Shown here one piece after another: positions 3,541 to 24,132 of a DNA stretch of 39,055 nucleotides. Source of the stretch: Methanomassiliicoccaceae archaeon (GTDB lineage Archaea; Thermoplasmatota; Thermoplasmata; Methanomassiliicoccales; Methanomethylophilaceae); NCBI GenBank assembly GCA_009778575.1, contig WRJJ01000006.1, positions 1 to 39,055 on the forward strand, read 5' to 3'. Position 1 is the stretch's first letter, and the number at the start of each line of letters is the position of its first letter. Under the pieces are notes generated by a model. It had not been told where the DNA came from, ran no database searches, and saw only the letters and a list, made by a program, of their open reading frames with translations. Both the position numbers and the translations under genes were made by a program.

Positions 3541-3614
3541 GGGCCTGTAGCTCAGCTAGGTAGAGCGATCGACTCTTAATCGATCGGCCAAGGGTTCGAA
3601 TCCCTTCAGGCCCG
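3541..3614 (+). tRNA. tRNA-Lys (anticodon CUU)
   Basis: The 74-base cloverleaf is complete. The acceptor stem GGGCCTG pairs with CAGGCCC and the discriminator is G. The D-stem is GCTC/GAGC. The anticodon stem ATCGA/TCGAT carries the loop CTCTTAA, so the anticodon CTT is at 3575-3577. The T arm is AAGGG-TTCGAAT-CCCTT. CCA is not encoded and there is no intron. It reads AAG codons and is the partner of tRNA-Lys(UUU) at 35025-35098. Five T residues follow directly. Confidence 0.96.
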
Positions 3615-3615
3615 C

Positions 3616-4501: not shown

Positions 4502-5275
4502 TTACCGCTTTCCCGGTTTGTATGCCTTGAGATACTTCACCAGGTCCTTGTCCGCATCCGTCCATTCCGGGGTCTGACCGTTCTTCATAAACTCATTGTA
4601 CCAGTCAGCGGCCTCCTTCATGTACGGCGCCATATCCAGCTTCTTTTTGATGATTATCTTGGTGTTGTCCTCATTGGGTATCCAATTCTTAGGTCTGTCA
4701 TAATCGGCATCGCCCAGGAACCCTACCAGAAACACGATCTTGTCCAAGCGGGACAGCTCCGCATACAGCGATGCCTGCAGCATGTATTGCTCCGCAACGT
4801 TGGTGTAGTCCCCATTCTCGTCCAGCCACTTCTCCCTCTCGCCGGAGGTCTTGATCTCCAGAATGGAATTCCTTTTGCCGTCGACCGTAACGTAACCGTC
4901 CACAAGCCCGCCGAATACTTTCTCGTTATGGAAGTGATCATAACCGCACATTTCTCCGGGAGCGGGTTCCTCTATGACCGTCTTGGATCCGTCCGGGAGT
5001 TCCAACAGAGGTACAAGCGAGGAAACGTTCTTCCTCATGTAGGATCTGAGCACAGGCTCGAGGATATTGCCTGCCTCGATGTATTTTGTTTTGGTATCCT
5101 CGCGATAGATGCCCGCAAGATCCAGCGCAACGGAGAAAGGTGTCTGGAAATCCCCTCTCCCCAATATCGGAGCGAGTCTTGTTCCCGTGATCTTCTTGAT
5201 CTTGTACGGATCGAAGTAGACGATCCTGCCGTCATCGTCGATATCCTCGATCCTGTGTCTGCCGTCGAATGCCAT
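4502..5275 (-). CDS. YqaJ/lambda-exonuclease-type PD-(D/E)XK nuclease
   Basis: The 257-residue protein has the layout of YqaJ-type viral recombination exonucleases, which chew one strand of double-stranded DNA ends. ITGTRLAPILGR (29-40) is the typical N-terminal 'G-S-' region. Glu73 lies in AGNILEP. Asp126 in GGLVDGYV, Glu140 and Lys142 in ILEIKTS, and Gln167 in the QASLYAEL helix complete the catalytic set, so it looks active. No single-strand annealing partner (RecT/Bet) or other phage gene is next to it. A TATA-like CATAAAAT is centred 27 bp before the ATG, so it has its own promoter. Its place between a tRNA scar and unknown membrane genes fits a leftover from a mobile element, but domestication is also possible. 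Confidence 0.82.
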   Translation of the reverse strand: MAFDGRHRIEDIDDDGRIVYFDPYKIKKITGTRLAPILGRGDFQTPFSVALDLAGIYREDTKTKYIEAGNILEPVLRSYMRKNVSSLVPLLELPDGSKTVIEEPAPGEMCGYDHFHNEKVFGGLVDGYVTVDGKRNSILEIKTSGEREKWLDENGDYTNVAEQYMLQASLYAELSRLDKIVFLVGFLGDADYDRPKNWIPNEDNTKIIIKKKLDMAPYMKEAADWYNEFMKNGQTPEWTDADKDLVKYLKAYKPGKR

Positions 5276-9171: not shown

Positions 9172-10326
9172 TTATGGGCTGATGTGGGACGTAAGAGTAA
9201 TCTCCGAATCACTGATAAGCACTTCGTAGTAGTAAACATCTTTAAACGAATATATCAGGCCATTTGATTGTCCAACGTACATTTCCTGATCATATGTTGA
9301 AGAAAAGGACTGAGTCTTTTTCTCGTACACATCGCAGACAACATTTCCATCTATCGTGCTGATCACTTCTGACCTGACTGGCATATATCCGAAAAGAATG
9401 TTGTGCACCAAGAAAGAAAGTGCATTTTCCAGCCTAAAATCACCATTCGGCACAGAACCACTAAAGCCTACTTCATTAACATAAGTCAGCGGCGGCAATA
9501 TCGCTTCAAATATTGAATCGACACCATCTCTGGTACCTGAGAAACAGCATGATACAAATTTTACATCTGTCCCTGAAAGTGACCCTTCGGCTACGCTTTT
9601 CAGAGTAAAGGTTCCACTTACTTCCTTCCCATGGTGGATGCCATTCCAAGTATACACTAGCCCCTTGCCTAAATCGCTGGGCATCGAATAATCCTCTGAA
9701 TCTTTTATTTCATATGCAATCAGCCTGAATGACTCCGAACGAACCTCTCCCGAATCTAGGTCTGTATGGGTAATACTAAATTTGTATGGTATTACATCTT
9801 GGGAGGAGGTCATCAGAGAAACATTCGATTGACCAAAAAAGTCGTTCAATATTGTTTCCCACTTGTTGACAGATACATTTTTACCATTATATTCCACAGA
9901 CTCTGTTCCCGTTTTTGACGAGAACATTACTTCTCCCGTCAATTTATGGACCATAAAAAGACCAAAAGATTGTGATTGGCTTGTTTGCTGGTATGTCCCT
10001 GCTCCGTAGCTCCTTTGATGAATCCAACTGAAATACAGTACATAATAGCTTCCGCTTTGTCCTACGATCTCAGCCTTTATTTCAACATACGTTCCTGGGC
10101 TGTCGGTGGTTTCGTCTGGGATGGACTCATAAAAAAATGTGCTGCCCATCCCCATTTTACCTTGGATCACAGGTTCATTGACACCAGTTGTACGATCTTT
10201 CGAATCACCATTTTTCGACTCATCATCGCTAAGAAGCACATATGCGCCGCCGGCTGACACGCCTACAAGCAGAACAACGACCAATACTGCCACTATGCTA
10301 GAAATTCCATTTCTGTCAAATCTCAT
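9172..10326 (-). CDS. Membrane-anchored surface protein with pilin-like N-terminus
   Basis: The 384-residue protein begins MRFDRNGISSIVAVL, a short basic stretch, then a hydrophobic helix (about 8-32). This is the layout of archaeal type IV pilin (class III) signals, where a PibD/FlaK-type peptidase would cut near RNG/IS. The rest is polar, beta-rich and Ser/Thr-rich, with two NVS sequons that could be N-glycosylated. I recognise no domain. It is clearly AT-richer by eye than its neighbours, uses AT-ending codons, and stands alone with a strong TATA box, so it may be acquired. It is too long for a simple pilin, and an N-terminally anchored envelope protein is equally likely. The 137 bp beyond its stop are AT-rich and hold nothing I can name. 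Confidence 0.78.
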   Translation of the reverse strand: MRFDRNGISSIVAVLVVVLLVGVSAGGAYVLLSDDESKNGDSKDRTTGVNEPVIQGKMGMGSTFFYESIPDETTDSPGTYVEIKAEIVGQSGSYYVLYFSWIHQRSYGAGTYQQTSQSQSFGLFMVHKLTGEVMFSSKTGTESVEYNGKNVSVNKWETILNDFFGQSNVSLMTSSQDVIPYKFSITHTDLDSGEVRSESFRLIAYEIKDSEDYSMPSDLGKGLVYTWNGIHHGKEVSGTFTLKSVAEGSLSGTDVKFVSCCFSGTRDGVDSIFEAILPPLTYVNEVGFSGSVPNGDFRLENALSFLVHNILFGYMPVRSEVISTIDGNVVCDVYEKKTQSFSSTYDQEMYVGQSNGLIYSFKDVYYYEVLISDSEITLTSHISP

Positions 10327-17665: not shown

Positions 17666-18454
17666 TCAGCGCCTTGATTTGGGTTTGCCGTAGTTCTTGA
17701 CAGGCTTCCGGTAAAGATAGACGACCATTATGATGAACACCACCAAGAGAATGGCGAGCATGATATTGATCAGTCCGTAATCCGAGTGGCCGACGTAGAA
17801 ATCGCCTTCCCCTCCCAGGAATGATGCCTTGCTCCCGATGTTCTCGTCGCCCGCCACCACCTGGAAGGTATGCCTTCCGTTGGAAAGGGACTCCGCGACC
17901 CATTCGTGCGTCACCGTCGTCTTCCCTCCCACTTCCACGGACACCGTCGTCTTGCTGTCCTCCACCAGGACTCCGTCGACCTTGAAGTAGACAACGAAGT
18001 TGGTAAAGTCCACATTGCTGTTGTTCATCAGGACTGCAGTCAATACAACAGGCTCCACGACCGTTATGGTCTGGGTCCTTTCCGTCTTTACGCTGGGATC
18101 GTCATCTTTCTCCGCGGTGAAGGTAACAACAAGTGTATACTTCCCCGCAGAGGCCGGTGCGTTGATCGTCAGATCTGACTCTATGCCGTTCGAAAGCGTT
18201 CCCGATGAAGGGGACACTGCGCCGGATTGGTTATCTCCGCTGCCGTTCTTCAGCACAGCTGAATAGGTTATCACCAGCGTATCGAACTCCTCTGACTCGA
18301 AATACATTATCTGGTAGGTAAGATAGCCTTTGGTCTTTACGACGTTCGTGTCACCTTTGATATATGTGCTGGCCCCGTCAACGTCCGATGAGCTTTCCAA
18401 AAGGACAGCTCCCGCTGCGAACACCATTGCGAATACCGCTATCGCGGCGATCAT
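17666..18454 (-). CDS. Membrane-anchored surface protein with CARDB-like domain
   Basis: The 262-residue protein has a signal-peptide-like N-terminus (hydrophobic 1-19, then SSSDVDGAST). Two beta-sandwich regions (about 32-133 and 135-205) follow, then one membrane helix at about 229-248 and a basic cytoplasmic tail. The second beta region, with VLMNNSNVDFTNF, VYFKVDGV and VEVGGKTTVTHEW, has the look of a CARDB (cell adhesion-related) domain. The chain would be outside with a C-terminal anchor. The start overlaps the stop of the giant AglB-like gene in ATGA, so both come from one mRNA and the proteins may form an envelope complex. The N-glycosylation sequon NGS at 70-72 is visible. The exact function is unknown. 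Confidence 0.75.
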   Translation of the reverse strand: MIAAIAVFAMVFAAGAVLLESSSDVDGASTYIKGDTNVVKTKGYLTYQIMYFESEEFDTLVITYSAVLKNGSGDNQSGAVSPSSGTLSNGIESDLTINAPASAGKYTLVVTFTAEKDDDPSVKTERTQTITVVEPVVLTAVLMNNSNVDFTNFVVYFKVDGVLVEDSKTTVSVEVGGKTTVTHEWVAESLSNGRHTFQVVAGDENIGSKASFLGGEGDFYVGHSDYGLINIMLAILLVVFIIMVVYLYRKPVKNYGKPKSRR

Positions 18455-21400
18455 CTTTTTCGTACGAACACCCCCTTCTTAATTCCAAACCACAGCATGG
18501 CAATGAACGCCAGTATGGCCAAGGCCACCAGCGCTATTGTCAGCGGCGGTGCCGGACTCGGACCGCCGAAGATGTTGTTGCCAGATGCGGACATGTCCTC
18601 CGCTTCCATTTCGGCGGGCTGCGCGCTCATGTTGTTGATCGTTGCGGTGCTTCCTATGACCGATACCTTGCTGCTGCTGTTGGTATCGAGCGTCTGACCC
18701 GGCATGGTGACCGTCACATTTATGGCGGGGACCTCCGTGACCGATGCGCTCCTTGACATCAGTTTTATGTATATTACCGTTGAATCAAACCCGTTGACCT
18801 TGAATGAATTCGTTCCCGTCTGAGGGAAGATCATTCCTCCGTCCTTATCGGAATAGACCAGCGTCCAGTTGCTGCCGCCGCCCACTATCGTTGCGGAAAC
18901 GGTTGCCGTCTTGAGGAATCTGTCGTTGTTGGTTATCGTCACCGCATACATGTACTCATTACCGCTTACCGCATCGGCGAATGCCTCCGCGGTCCCGCTT
19001 ATGTCCACATATGTCGGGCTGCTCGGGCCTGATGAGAACGCGCTGCCGTCAAGCACATACGTTCCGACGGTATTGCCGTTTATCGATCTGACCATTACGG
19101 CCAGTTCCTCGTTGCCGGCGCCTACCGTGTCTGGGTTATAGCGGCCTTCCACCACTACGGTCCCGGTCATGCCTGCGTTCACGGAAAGCGCATATGCCTT
19201 GTCAAGTACCCATCCGGGCCCGCCTATCACATTGTATGTGGCATTGTAGCTGCCGGTGTTCTTCACGCTCAGAGTGAACGAACCGCGTCCGTTCACGAAG
19301 TTGAAGCTGCTTCCCGACAGCTCTACCAGCGTGTTGCTCGATGAGGATGTTGTCACGGGGAAACGTATCGTGGCCCCGTCGATCACCTCGCTCGGGATCA
19401 TCGATGTGGAACCTGTGTAAGTATATTCCATGTAGTCTATCGTCTGAGATAGTTTAGCGCTTAGGTTCAGGCTTGTTCCCCTGGGCACCGTGATGTCGAA
19501 CGACCCTCCGCTTATCGAGAATGGGATCGTCACGCCGCCGTACGTAACGGTGAGCGTTCCGTCCGCGGTCACTCCCACGTATCCGCTTATGACGGCCTTT
19601 TCCGCCTTGTTTGACAGATTCAGGGTTGTCGGGCTTGTGATATTAGTAACGGATGCGTACGCTATCTGTTCAGTATCACCGGTGCCTGACAGGGCCGTGA
19701 AATAGAAACTCTTGTTTCTTTCGAGGTAGTAGACAAGCGGATTGCTTGAATCCACAAAGTATTCTCCTCTTTCATCATCTGTAGCCGTTACCGTTATAAC
19801 GTCATTCGTTGACGCATTGAGTTCCACCCTTACAACATTCGTTGTCTGGATGTTCAGGGACCCGCTCTGCCCCGGGTATATGTAGACCGTTCCGTTGAAA
19901 GAGGAGCCTGAGGTCCCCTTTATCTCGGCGGTGTACTGTCCGGGTATCACGCCGGTCAAACTGGTACCCTCATATGTCGTCGAAGAGCTGTTGTACAGCG
20001 TCAGTTTCACAGAGACGCTGTTCGTCACGCTGACCGTTTTGACATATGAGCCTGAAGATCCGCTGGCTGCGATGCTCCATGTGTTGGAAGTGTTGCTTGT
20101 GCCTGCGGCGAAATTGGACGTTTGATCTTCCAAGACGAACCTGGAGGTGTTGAACCCGGGCGTCGTCATCACTGCAGAGTATCCCTGAGGCACGGTGAAC
20201 ACCGATTTGCCCGTGGGATCCGTCTTTATCGTGATGAAGTGCTCTCTGTCGGTGGAGATGGACATTTTGATGTCCACGAACGCCACTCCCCTCGTTGTCG
20301 ATGAGGACATGTTCGTCCTGTAGTTCAAATTCATGGTAAGGTCGCGGGATGCCGTAGTGCGGACATCTCCCAGATCTGTGCTGCCTGAGATCGTCTGACC
20401 CCTTATCAGCGCGCTTCCCGATCCGAAGATGTACATTGTGTATGTTCCGTTGGGCAGCATGACGTCGAATGCGCCGTCCTCATCCGATGTGAATATGAAC
20501 GTCGCGCCGCTTGCCATTATGAACGATACCGTGGCGGAGAACGGATTGCCGTCCTTGTCTTTCACTACCCCTTTCACGCTGTACCCGTCGGAATTGGTGA
20601 GCGTTATCGAGGTGCCGGTTGTCGTACCGTAGTACACCTTGCCGCCGCTTACCGCATATGCGGTGTACATGTCATTGGGGGCTCCGGTGCTGGCCGGCAC
20701 TGAGAACGATGTTGTGGTCAGCGATGCCATGTATCCGAAGGACATCAGGGTAACGAGGCTTCCTGAGGGGGCCCCGGAAACGGAGATGTTCCTTGCATCA
20801 TACACTGTCAGCGATGCGGTGGAGTTCCCGCCGTTTGAAACGGTCGTCGTTGGGTTAGAGGCCGAGACCTTCGATCCCGTGGCGTATATTGTGTATGTTG
20901 ACGGCACGACGTAGATCTTCGCTTGACCGTCATCCACTACTCCGGTGTACTTGACGCCCGTGGATATATCCTGCGCCTCTATCACGGTCCCGTTCGGGGC
21001 CTTGGCGCCTACGTCGGTCGTGACCGTTACTGTTATCATTCCCGTTGTCGCAGATGCGCGGTACCCTACATTGGCGCCGACATTGACGATCACGGTTCCG
21101 GAGTTGATCGTTGTTCCAGATGGAGAGAACAGGGTGACCGTGTAAATATCGGGTATGATGTCATTGAATACGAAATTCCCGCCTATCATATCCGTCTGAT
21201 ATTTAGTTCCGGATGCGGCCCCCTCGATCACCACATATGCGTCCCCGGTGTACGGTTTGAACGGATCATTGCTTATGTATGCGGTTCCGGACAGACTTGT
21301 AGCCGGTATGGTCAGGTTCGAAGCGGACGACGTCATGTTCTGGCGGGTCTCTATGACCGACCCGGTCGCAAGCGTGGTTGTTCCGGATGAGAACACAACA

Positions 21401-24132
21401 TAGTAATCCGCACCCTTCGGTACCAGTACGGTGTACGAGCCGTCATCGCCCGTGAACACGGTCGACCTCTTTACATATCCCGTCACTCCGGAGGAGTCGT
21501 AGTCTGTCTCAACAAAGACGGATACCTGGATGCCTCCCACTCCGGGTGATCCCAAAGTGGCATAGCTCACTTTGCCGGATACCTCATTGTTCATAGTGGG
21601 GTCGTATTCAAGCATGACCACACCGTTGACGAAGTTTATGGTCCCGCCTTCGGAATTCTGTTTTGCTATCGCGTCGAATGCGTCCATGTCCTCCCACCCG
21701 TCTGTGGCGTGGGTGGCTTTGTCTTCAGGATTATAGAGTACATGCCAGTATGCTATCTTGTAGTTGGCGAGACCGTATCCCGGATTGGCCTTTACCGATC
21801 CGTCGCTGAGCGCGAGGTAGTTGAGGTAGTCGATCGAGGAGTAGAATCCGGCCTCGGCCGGAGACATCCCGATCAGCGCCTTCCAGAAGAAGGTCTCGTA
21901 CATAGCGTCCTTGTAGGAGGCATATCCCGAGTATGTGTCGTATGTGAAGAAATTGGTCGGGGCGCCGTACATATCCACGGAGTAGTTTCCGAGATATGCC
22001 AGCGTTGAGAAATATGACCTGTCGCCGTAGTACAGCGGAAGCATCGACCTGTCTACCGCCACATACGTTATCGATTCGCCGCTGATGCTGCATATGCTGT
22101 TGTAAAGGTCGTTAACCTTGGGCTCTGAGATCGTGCTTGTGATGTAGTGTGTGAGAACAAGATACAGCGCGTTCTCCTCGGTGACGCTTTGGCTTATTCC
22201 GCCGTATATGTCGGTCTCTTTCTTTACCTCATCCACTGCAGTGGAGGGGTTGTCGATGTACCCTTTGATGATATTGTAGTTCAATCCGGCTGCCCCTATT
22301 GCCGATGCATATTTTGAAATGTCCTTGTCAAGAAGCAGACGTACCGCCATTGTCGCCGTTGCCGCCGAACCGCTGTTTGCCAGCAATATCGCGGACATGG
22401 CGGATGCTCCGCCGCCGGTAAGATCTGTTACCGAATCGAACCCGCCGCGGGAAACCGCTTCCGTTGAATAACCGAACCACGCCACCAGCGCTCCGTTCTT
22501 GTTGACATCGCTGAACTCGCCCCACATCGTGTTGATCGAGTTGACGTCATCGGTCATTATCGTGTACCCGAGCCCTCCGAAGTATCCGTTGCCGTCCTCC
22601 GTGTTGGTGGGTGTGCTTGCGTCTACCGCGTTCACAAGGTTGGGTGCCAGTATGAGTACCACTATCGCAACGGTGGTCGCGAGCGGTATCGGTTTGAGCG
22701 CTTTTCTTGCTGCAGCTTTTATTCCGTTGCCTCTCATGTCGGCAAAATAGCCCTTCAGGTCCGTCATCCTAATGGCCATGAGGATCAATGCCGCCGAGGC
22801 CACGGCGAACCCTGCTCCCGCAAGGACCGCATATGATGTCGAGAACCATCCGATGCAGAACATGGCGATTATCCACCACATTGTGAAAGTGTACTTTCTG
22901 GAGTCCATGTTTGCGCGGTATTTGTAGAACATATACAGGAACATCACGAGCGGCAGCCAAACGGTCAGCCAGCCGAAGAATGCGGCCATTGACGATATGG
23001 ATGTCCTGCTTGACGACGATGCCAGGTTGGCCATCAGTTCGTTCGTGTATGTCGAGTTGCCGTTTACCACGGCGGAGAACAGATCGCCTGATATCAGGCT
23101 GATCACTAAGAGCGCGGCCCCCGCTATTATCAAAGTGATGGGAAGCATCAGCACCCATGTTGTCTTTGCCGTCTTGCCGAAGAAGACCGCAAGGGCCACC
23201 GATAGTATTGCGACTATGAACGGTCCCGAAAAGACGGCGTCCCAGAGGCCTGCGGCGATGTAGATCGGTGCTGAGAGCAGTATCCCCATCATGATGACGG
23301 AAGAATAGATCCCCACCGTCGGCGTGATCTCCTTCCCCCTTAGGCGGTCAACGACTGCCTGAGCGGCCATGAAGAACACCAATGCCAAAAGGATTATGCG
23401 GAACTGATTCCATGACATGGCGATCATTGCGAACAGTATCCCCGTGATGAGCAGATTCTTGAGTATGGTCTTTTCCTTGAGCATGACCCTGAATCCGCTG
23501 GGCTGTGCCTTGTCGCAGCCTTCCAGTGTTTTCAGCAGGAAGTATATCATGAATGCGAACAGGAACCCTACGAATGCAAATTCCGTGCCGTTCGAGAAGA
23601 CTGTGGTCATTATCAGGAGCGCAAAGAATGCGTACAAGAGCGCTGCCAAAAGGCCTATCTTCTCATCATTGAACATATTCCTCCCTATGAGGTACACGGG
23701 CCAGCATGTGAGCGCCGCGAATATCGGCGCGGAGAACGCCAGCGTTCCGGCTGCAGCGGTTCCCGCCGATACACCGAAAGCCGACACTATCATGGCAACC
23801 CCCGAGAGGAGGATATCCATCAGCGGCGGGTTGACGCCGACGGACCCGTATGGATAGTTGAGGGCCGGATCCGTGAACGCGAACGAACCGTTGATTATGC
23901 TTTCGATCATATGAGCGTGACTTGATGCCCCTGACCCGCCTGACAGAGCGAAATCGCTGCCGGCGGATACACCATAGGCAAAAATGAATCTTATGACAAA
24001 AGCCACGATCATGATCGCTAACAGTGTTATCAGGCGCCATTCTCTTTTGTACCATACTTCCTCGTCATCGCCCGATGCCGGCAGGAAGCCCCCGTCTGTG
24101 GGTTTGGCAGACCTAATTCCAATTTTGCGCAT
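18451..24132 (-). CDS. Giant STT3/AglB-like protein with altered catalytic motifs
   Basis: The 1893-residue protein has an AglB/STT3 plan. About 12 membrane helices span roughly 32-500, with the family's NYPYG (92-96) in the first loop. A globular part runs to about 850, ending in NGVVMLEYDP--N-EVSG like the end of archaeal AglB. About 1000 extra residues follow: carboxypeptidase-regulatory-like beta repeats (about 851-1240), further Ser/Thr-rich beta regions, and a final membrane helix near 1865-1885 with a basic tail. AglB transfers lipid-linked glycans to Asn in N-X-S/T. Here the sequon-binding WWDYG appears as WFGYS (552-556), and the first-loop DPYYH region reads GASSH (68-72), both losing Asp. 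It may not be an active transferase. An ATG with GGAG eight bases upstream and a TATA box further out marks the start. Confidence 0.85.
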   Translation of the reverse strand: MRKIGIRSAKPTDGGFLPASGDDEEVWYKREWRLITLLAIMIVAFVIRFIFAYGVSAGSDFALSGGSGASSHAHMIESIINGSFAFTDPALNYPYGSVGVNPPLMDILLSGVAMIVSAFGVSAGTAAAGTLAFSAPIFAALTCWPVYLIGRNMFNDEKIGLLAALLYAFFALLIMTTVFSNGTEFAFVGFLFAFMIYFLLKTLEGCDKAQPSGFRVMLKEKTILKNLLITGILFAMIAMSWNQFRIILLALVFFMAAQAVVDRLRGKEITPTVGIYSSVIMMGILLSAPIYIAAGLWDAVFSGPFIVAILSVALAVFFGKTAKTTWVLMLPITLIIAGAALLVISLISGDLFSAVVNGNSTYTNELMANLASSSSRTSISSMAAFFGWLTVWLPLVMFLYMFYKYRANMDSRKYTFTMWWIIAMFCIGWFSTSYAVLAGAGFAVASAALILMAIRMTDLKGYFADMRGNGIKAAARKALKPIPLATTVAIVVLILAPNLVNAVDASTPTNTEDGNGYFGGLGYTIMTDDVNSINTMWGEFSDVNKNGALVAWFGYSTEAVSRGGFDSVTDLTGGGASAMSAILLANSGSAATATMAVRLLLDKDISKYASAIGAAGLNYNIIKGYIDNPSTAVDEVKKETDIYGGISQSVTEENALYLVLTHYITSTISEPKVNDLYNSICSISGESITYVAVDRSMLPLYYGDRSYFSTLAYLGNYSVDMYGAPTNFFTYDTYSGYASYKDAMYETFFWKALIGMSPAEAGFYSSIDYLNYLALSDGSVKANPGYGLANYKIAYWHVLYNPEDKATHATDGWEDMDAFDAIAKQNSEGGTINFVNGVVMLEYDPTMNNEVSGKVSYATLGSPGVGGIQVSVFVETDYDSSGVTGYVKRSTVFTGDDGSYTVLVPKGADYYVVFSSGTTTLATGSVIETRQNMTSSASNLTIPATSLSGTAYISNDPFKPYTGDAYVVIEGAASGTKYQTDMIGGNFVFNDIIPDIYTVTLFSPSGTTINSGTVIVNVGANVGYRASATTGMITVTVTTDVGAKAPNGTVIEAQDISTGVKYTGVVDDGQAKIYVVPSTYTIYATGSKVSASNPTTTVSNGGNSTASLTVYDARNISVSGAPSGSLVTLMSFGYMASLTTTSFSVPASTGAPNDMYTAYAVSGGKVYYGTTTGTSITLTNSDGYSVKGVVKDKDGNPFSATVSFIMASGATFIFTSDEDGAFDVMLPNGTYTMYIFGSGSALIRGQTISGSTDLGDVRTTASRDLTMNLNYRTNMSSSTTRGVAFVDIKMSISTDREHFITIKTDPTGKSVFTVPQGYSAVMTTPGFNTSRFVLEDQTSNFAAGTSNTSNTWSIAASGSSGSYVKTVSVTNSVSVKLTLYNSSSTTYEGTSLTGVIPGQYTAEIKGTSGSSFNGTVYIYPGQSGSLNIQTTNVVRVELNASTNDVITVTATDDERGEYFVDSSNPLVYYLERNKSFYFTALSGTGDTEQIAYASVTNITSPTTLNLSNKAEKAVISGYVGVTADGTLTVTYGGVTIPFSISGGSFDITVPRGTSLNLSAKLSQTIDYMEYTYTGSTSMIPSEVIDGATIRFPVTTSSSSNTLVELSGSSFNFVNGRGSFTLSVKNTGSYNATYNVIGGPGWVLDKAYALSVNAGMTGTVVVEGRYNPDTVGAGNEELAVMVRSINGNTVGTYVLDGSAFSSGPSSPTYVDISGTAEAFADAVSGNEYMYAVTITNNDRFLKTATVSATIVGGGSNWTLVYSDKDGGMIFPQTGTNSFKVNGFDSTVIYIKLMSRSASVTEVPAINVTVTMPGQTLDTNSSSKVSVIGSTATINNMSAQPAEMEAEDMSASGNNIFGGPSPAPPLTIALVALAILAFIAMLWFGIKKGVFVRKR

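Follow-up and report, generated by a model that had tools for sequence, protein, structure and literature searches.

A giant STT3-like protein of gut-type methanogens as a likely retired oligosaccharyltransferase and candidate surface scaffold

We analysed a 39,055-nucleotide stretch of contig WRJJ01000006.1 (assembly GCA_009778575.1; hereafter the window), which encodes at 18451..24132 on the minus strand a 1893-residue giant derived from STT3/AglB, the archaeal oligosaccharyltransferase (OST), and predicted to be catalytically inactive. We consider it likely that this protein is a retired OST that has been selectively retained as a membrane or cell-surface scaffold of its archaeal family. 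With slightly better than even confidence, we further propose that the whole family has lost N-glycosylation and keeps its sole OST as a conserved pseudoenzyme, which together with a CARDB-like companion protein would scaffold the surface or export without catalysis.

Fold and active site of the STT3-like protein

The open reading frame is intact, and its best curated match was TIGR04154 (archaeal STT3; residues 35-509, 103.6 bits), below a cut-off of 450 bits that no genome of the order reaches, canonical ones included. The Pfam STT3 family PF02516 had no match above its curated cut-off in the source genome, and 20 of 54 relatives in set A2 matched it at E ≤ 0.01. A direct phmmer search of the PDB with the window protein gave no match, and the link had to be made through canonical relatives. 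An AlphaFold2 model of residues 25-860 (pLDDT 87, pTM 0.83) was compared by Foldseek, whose best PDB matches were all AglB, STT3A/B and PglB, with the AglB structure 7e9s at the top (E 3.5e-16, TM-score 0.61). The window protein thus has a multi-pass OST membrane domain of the GT-C type (about residues 35-500; 22633..24030, minus strand, as for all parts of this gene) and a soluble core domain with the AglB/STT3 fold (about residues 505-860; 21553..22620), which agrees with the archaeal OST fold plan put forward in the original prediction. These are followed by an all-beta extracellular region of about 1000 residues with Ig/prealbumin-like sandwiches (18553..21552), a C-terminal transmembrane helix (residues 1863-1887; 18472..18546) and a basic tail, KKGVFVRKR, that is common to the window protein and its canonical relatives. 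Since the ectodomain returned only generic Ig-like multi-domain matches in Foldseek (query-normalised whole-chain TM-score <0.15), we claim no specific homologue for this modelled region. In relatives, the corresponding ectodomains (window 18553-21552, minus strand) showed weak Pfam matches to CarboxypepD_reg, EMC7 and NOMO-type beta-sandwich domains, of which the EMC7 and NOMO-type domains are translocon- or insertase-associated in eukaryotes.

For motif comparison, we aligned 111 proteins, comprising 39 canonical and 72 affected ones (71 from the family of the window protein and one independent loss). Residues were mapped from Archaeoglobus fulgidus AglB to the window protein through L006, a canonical relative of the same order whose alignment with A. 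fulgidus AglB covers 600 residues (E 8.6e-16). In A. fulgidus AglB, the metal ligands are Asp47, Asp161 and His163, Glu360 of the TIXE motif contacts the metal via water, the phosphate and the peptide have Arg426 and Asp552, respectively, in their vicinity, and Arg426, TIXE and the fifth external loop (EL5) bind the phosphate or lipid-linked oligosaccharide and the peptide (PMC8342417). In EL1 of the window protein, GGSGASSH (residues 65-72; 23917..23940) stands in place of GGSDSYYH, placing Gly68 in the Asp47 column. In EL2, SNGTEF (residues 180-185; 23578..23595) replaces SNADHD, with Thr183 and Phe185 at the positions of Asp161 and His163, so that both DXD-type sites are gone. The EL5 sequence YSTISEAQAP, including the TIXE glutamate, is absent (residues 361-380; 22993..23052), and the phosphate-site region (canonical RFxFN; 22822..22854) carries Ser433 where all 39 canonical proteins have the equivalent of Arg426. 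The sequon pocket WWDYG reads WFGYS (residues 552-556; 22465..22479), with W551, D552 and G554 replaced by F553, G554 and S556, respectively.

Two of these sites, WFGYS and GASSH (residues 68-72), had been named in the original prediction as having lost the sequon-binding and a metal-binding aspartate, together with a first-loop NYPYG that is indeed kept (residues 92-96). The sequence and alignment confirmed all three points and showed that the extent of the loss had been understated, as Asp161, His163, the TIXE glutamate and Arg426 have disappeared as well. The suggestion that Asp60 might take over the metal site did not hold, since its column is Gly in 34/39 canonical relatives and D, N or G among the affected proteins. 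A replacement site at EL1 Asp88 or EL2 Glu184 was likewise rejected, neither being invariant (58/71 and 55/71 affected proteins).

The pattern extends to the whole affected set. Canonical proteins carry the EL1 motif in 38/39 cases, DHD, TIxEA and RxFN in 39/39 each and WWDYG in 38/39, the missing motifs belonging to two proteins truncated by contig ends. By contrast, the EL1 pattern occurs in 2/72 affected proteins, and the EL2, TIXE, arginine and WWDYG motifs in none of them. Because 72 independent proteins show it, the loss is not a sequencing accident. None of the acidic residues in the alignment columns of the metal site, EL2 and EL5 is conserved throughout the affected clade. Within EL1, conservation persists at NYPxG and at other residues. 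EL5, the most conserved 20-residue block of the canonical proteins (0.87), is among the least conserved of the affected ones (0.39). Loss of the entire catalytic-residue set from the window protein is therefore well supported by the aligned sequences, and the protein probably does not transfer glycan.

Descent, selection and signs of N-glycosylation loss

STT3-like proteins were found in 134/147 genomes of the order Methanomassiliicoccales, including 73/74 high-quality ones, as a rule in one copy per genome; where a few genomes list additional matches, these stem from contig breaks or are fragments of one gene. The gene tree agrees with the genome groups. On this tree, the affected proteins form one clade inside family f1, containing all sampled genera except g10 and g13, plus the protein of genome G016 in family f5, so that two changes are required for the motif loss; the branch leading to the affected clade is long (0.95). 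Group f1 is probably the published gut family Methanomethylophilaceae (PMC10673518). The source species apparently belongs to Candidatus Methanoplasma, a genus that NCBI assigns to the order Methanomassiliicoccales, class Thermoplasmata. Across other families of the class, WWDYG is kept in 25 of 26 sampled proteins, the exception probably reflecting a wrongly picked reading frame, and GGSD and TIxE are present in nearly all, indicating that the active state is ancestral. The giant length (about 2050-2300 residues) is also class-wide in Thermoplasmata. The G016 protein (L044; G016:C2:228831-235931) has lost the same OST motifs partially and independently, in a genome with few glycosyltransferase family 2 (GT2) genes (3, against 8-14 elsewhere in f5), an apparent convergence with the family clade.

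Despite these losses, the protein is maintained. Comparisons within genera gave membrane-domain dN/dS values of mostly about 0.1-0.25 for affected proteins, the same range as in canonical pairs, and among close members of the genus of the window protein this domain is the best conserved part (71-78% identity, compared with 56-70% for ectodomain segments). Intact frames of 1830-2550 residues occur in dozens of genomes; the inactive form is present in closed genomes, in which no frameshifts or dN/dS near 1 were seen. The membrane and core domains are thus under purifying selection, and the affected clade combines loss of catalytic residues with selective constraint, as expected of a pseudoenzyme.

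We compared NX[S/T] with the reversed motif in the extracytoplasmic part of the STT3-like proteins, and counted 413 versus 229 in canonical proteins but 1116 versus 1084 in affected ones. By genus, the sequon excess was up in 10 and down in 1 of the canonical, and up in 4 and down in 6 of the affected; control tripeptides beginning with other residues gave ratios of 0.58-1.26. Canonical genomes have on average 9.5 GT2 and 10.3 GT1 genes, compared with 2.7 and 2.6 in affected genomes, and no GT2 was detected at E ≤ 1e-8 in the closed genomes G072 and G077, which still keep the STT3-like protein. The GPT-type starter family PF00953 was rejected as a discriminator, as it is absent from the whole order. 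EL5 decay, the vanished sequon excess and the reduced glycosyltransferases agree with a loss of N-glycosylation in the affected clade. Methanomethylophilus alvi, which was isolated from the gut family Methanomethylophilaceae, has no S-layer, cell wall or archaellum (PMC10673518), which leaves it without the archaeal N-glycoproteins that are best known.

The source genome retains one DPM-like GT2 (L241:1129-1863, minus strand) and one other GT-C protein, a PMT_2-like protein of 449 residues (L243:1198-2547, plus strand). The latter is no STT3, and whatever dolichol-phosphate sugar remains could be its substrate; the two genes possibly constitute a leftover dolichol-phosphate sugar pathway separate from the STT3-like protein. 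GT2 genes with one in-frame TAG were observed at G032:C2:165369-165830 and G085:C21:48484-48933. Methanomassiliicoccales use pyrrolysine, and these codons may be read through.

Companion gene and proposed scaffold

Immediately downstream, at 17666..18454 on the minus strand, lies a companion gene that overlaps the STT3-like gene by 4 bp, its start lying within the stop codon of the latter. It encodes a predicted exported, CARDB-like protein of 262 residues with a C-terminal transmembrane helix and a basic tail YRKPVKNYGKPKSRR; its relatives match CARDB. In all complete family loci (59/59), the companion either overlaps the STT3-like gene or comes directly after it. Homologues occur in 92/121 genomes of the class, and in 62/68 compared genomes outside the affected family clade the giant STT3 has this gene as its immediate downstream neighbour. 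We found no description of this class-wide CARDB companion in the papers searched; it is possibly an undescribed archaeal OST accessory subunit, class-wide in Thermoplasmata. Its survival after the loss of catalysis suggests a non-catalytic function shared with the STT3-like protein.

We propose the following model. Once its lineage had separated from the two genera that remain canonical (g10 and g13), the ancestor of the family would have given up N-glycosylation. The comparisons show that the sequon pocket, the metal ligands, the phosphate arginine and the TIXE glutamate decayed, and that the membrane domain, the giant beta-sandwich ectodomain and the CARDB companion were all retained. In the mechanism that we consider most likely, the giant OST and its companion would always have been an extracytoplasmic scaffold, anchored in the membrane, on which exported polypeptides are received or organised, so that in the affected clade only the structural half of the job of the OST would remain. 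The scaffold role would thus be older than the enzyme activity and would outlive it.

Elsewhere in the window, we noted a 384-residue open reading frame with no Pfam match at E ≤ 0.01 (9172-10326, minus strand) and a YqaJ-like (phage-type recombinase) gene (4502-5275, minus strand) near a tRNA-Lys (3541-3615).

Alternative explanations and relation to known systems

Several observations weigh against a retired OST kept as a scaffold. We infer its inactivity from residues; the scaffold role is putative, and so is any binding of the companion to the STT3-like protein. The sequon counts were drawn from related proteins, and the genome-wide test on exported proteins was weaker and mixed, with overall ratios of 1.04 for G135 and 1.51 for G016. 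Glycosyltransferase loss is a general trend in gut methanogens that fits genome reduction too (PMC9723798). Furthermore, genera g8 and g11 represent an intermediate state, in which the EL1 Asp and WLDYG or WLEY are still found but EL2 and TIXE are gone.

The main rival of the scaffold is a pseudo-transferase, the first option of the original prediction, in which sugar transfer has ceased but binding of acceptor chains or lipid-linked glycan persists; it might then serve as a chaperone, a sensor or an aid to a flippase. The membrane domain being the best conserved part within the genus, the preserved NYPxG and other EL1 residues, and the one remaining DPM-like GT2, through which dolichol-phosphate sugar may still exist, are compatible with residual binding. 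However, the AglB residues that contact phosphate, oligosaccharide and peptide (Arg426, TIXE and EL5; PMC8342417) are lost, and the closed genomes G072 and G077 keep the protein without any GT2 at the threshold used, which makes this rival rather doubtful.

Quite improbable is an active transferase that uses other residues, with different chemistry or, as the original prediction had offered, a different acceptor rule. Strong conservation of the whole protein, the frequent Glu184 and Asp88 and the retention of WIDY or WLDYG in some genera could be taken to favour such an enzyme. Nevertheless, a different acceptor rule is unlikely: none of the acidic residues of the metal site, EL2 and EL5 has been conserved across the clade, the constraint on EL5 is gone, and both the glycosyltransferases and the sequon excess dwindle alongside the motifs.

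We regard as very improbable that the protein is a paralogue beside a canonical STT3. The metagenome-assembled source genome is 92.6% complete and a second gene could be missing from it, yet PF02516, TIGR04154 and the family profile gave no other convincing STT3 there, and the closed genomes G071 (of the same genus), G072, G077, G034 and G037 each have one match, in line with the single match per genome across the order and with a gene tree that follows the genome groups. By homology, the STT3-like proteins are a single orthologous group inherited vertically across the order, and the window gene is the only STT3 found in its genome; thus, of the proposed non-transferring paralogue, non-transferring probably stands and paralogue does not. 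A decaying pseudogene or assembly artefact, to which the long branch of the affected clade might point, is scarcely credible given the intact frames in dozens of genomes, the low dN/dS and the conserved operon.

STT3 is the signature enzyme of N-glycosylation. This modification has been called 'seemingly universal' in Archaea (PMC8674786), and a sole OST turned pseudoenzyme across an archaeal family appears unreported in the searchable literature, in which, with subscription titles outside it, we found no paper combining Methanomassiliicoccales with 'oligosaccharyltransferase'. If retention as a scaffold is correct, the giant OSTs of Thermoplasmata would have a structural function besides catalysis, and an inactive but retained sole STT3 in a large family of gut-type methanogens would be a natural experiment in which what the OST does as an enzyme can be told apart from what it does as a structure. 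The presence of aglB alone would then be unsafe for inferring N-glycosylation, and the companion would be an apparently undescribed class-wide OST partner. The claim is directly testable in a cultured gut isolate of the family.

Compared with A. fulgidus AglB-L (7e9s/3waj/5gmy; GT66, STT3 family), the window protein is alike in its membrane and core fold (TM-score 0.61), and its orthology was traced through canonical relatives by vertical inheritance; it differs in having no metal ligands, TIXE, phosphate arginine or WWDYG pocket, and in carrying a further membrane anchor, its second, and an ectodomain longer by about 1000 residues. The giant canonical AglB proteins of other Thermoplasmata (TIGR04154-like, about 2050-2300 residues) share its length, architecture, C-terminal transmembrane helix with basic tail and companion, whereas they keep the catalytic motifs and, within the order, an ectodomain sequon excess. 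PglB, eukaryotic STT3A/B and DPY19, which share the GT-C fold and were lower-ranked structural matches, are active enzymes with intact active sites. Methanimicrococcus blatticola is likewise a host-associated methanogen with very few glycosyltransferases (PMC9723798); however, its two conserved glycosyltransferases, AglJ and AglB, are assigned to N-glycosylation (PMC9723798), whereas the AglB orthologue described here lacks its active site.

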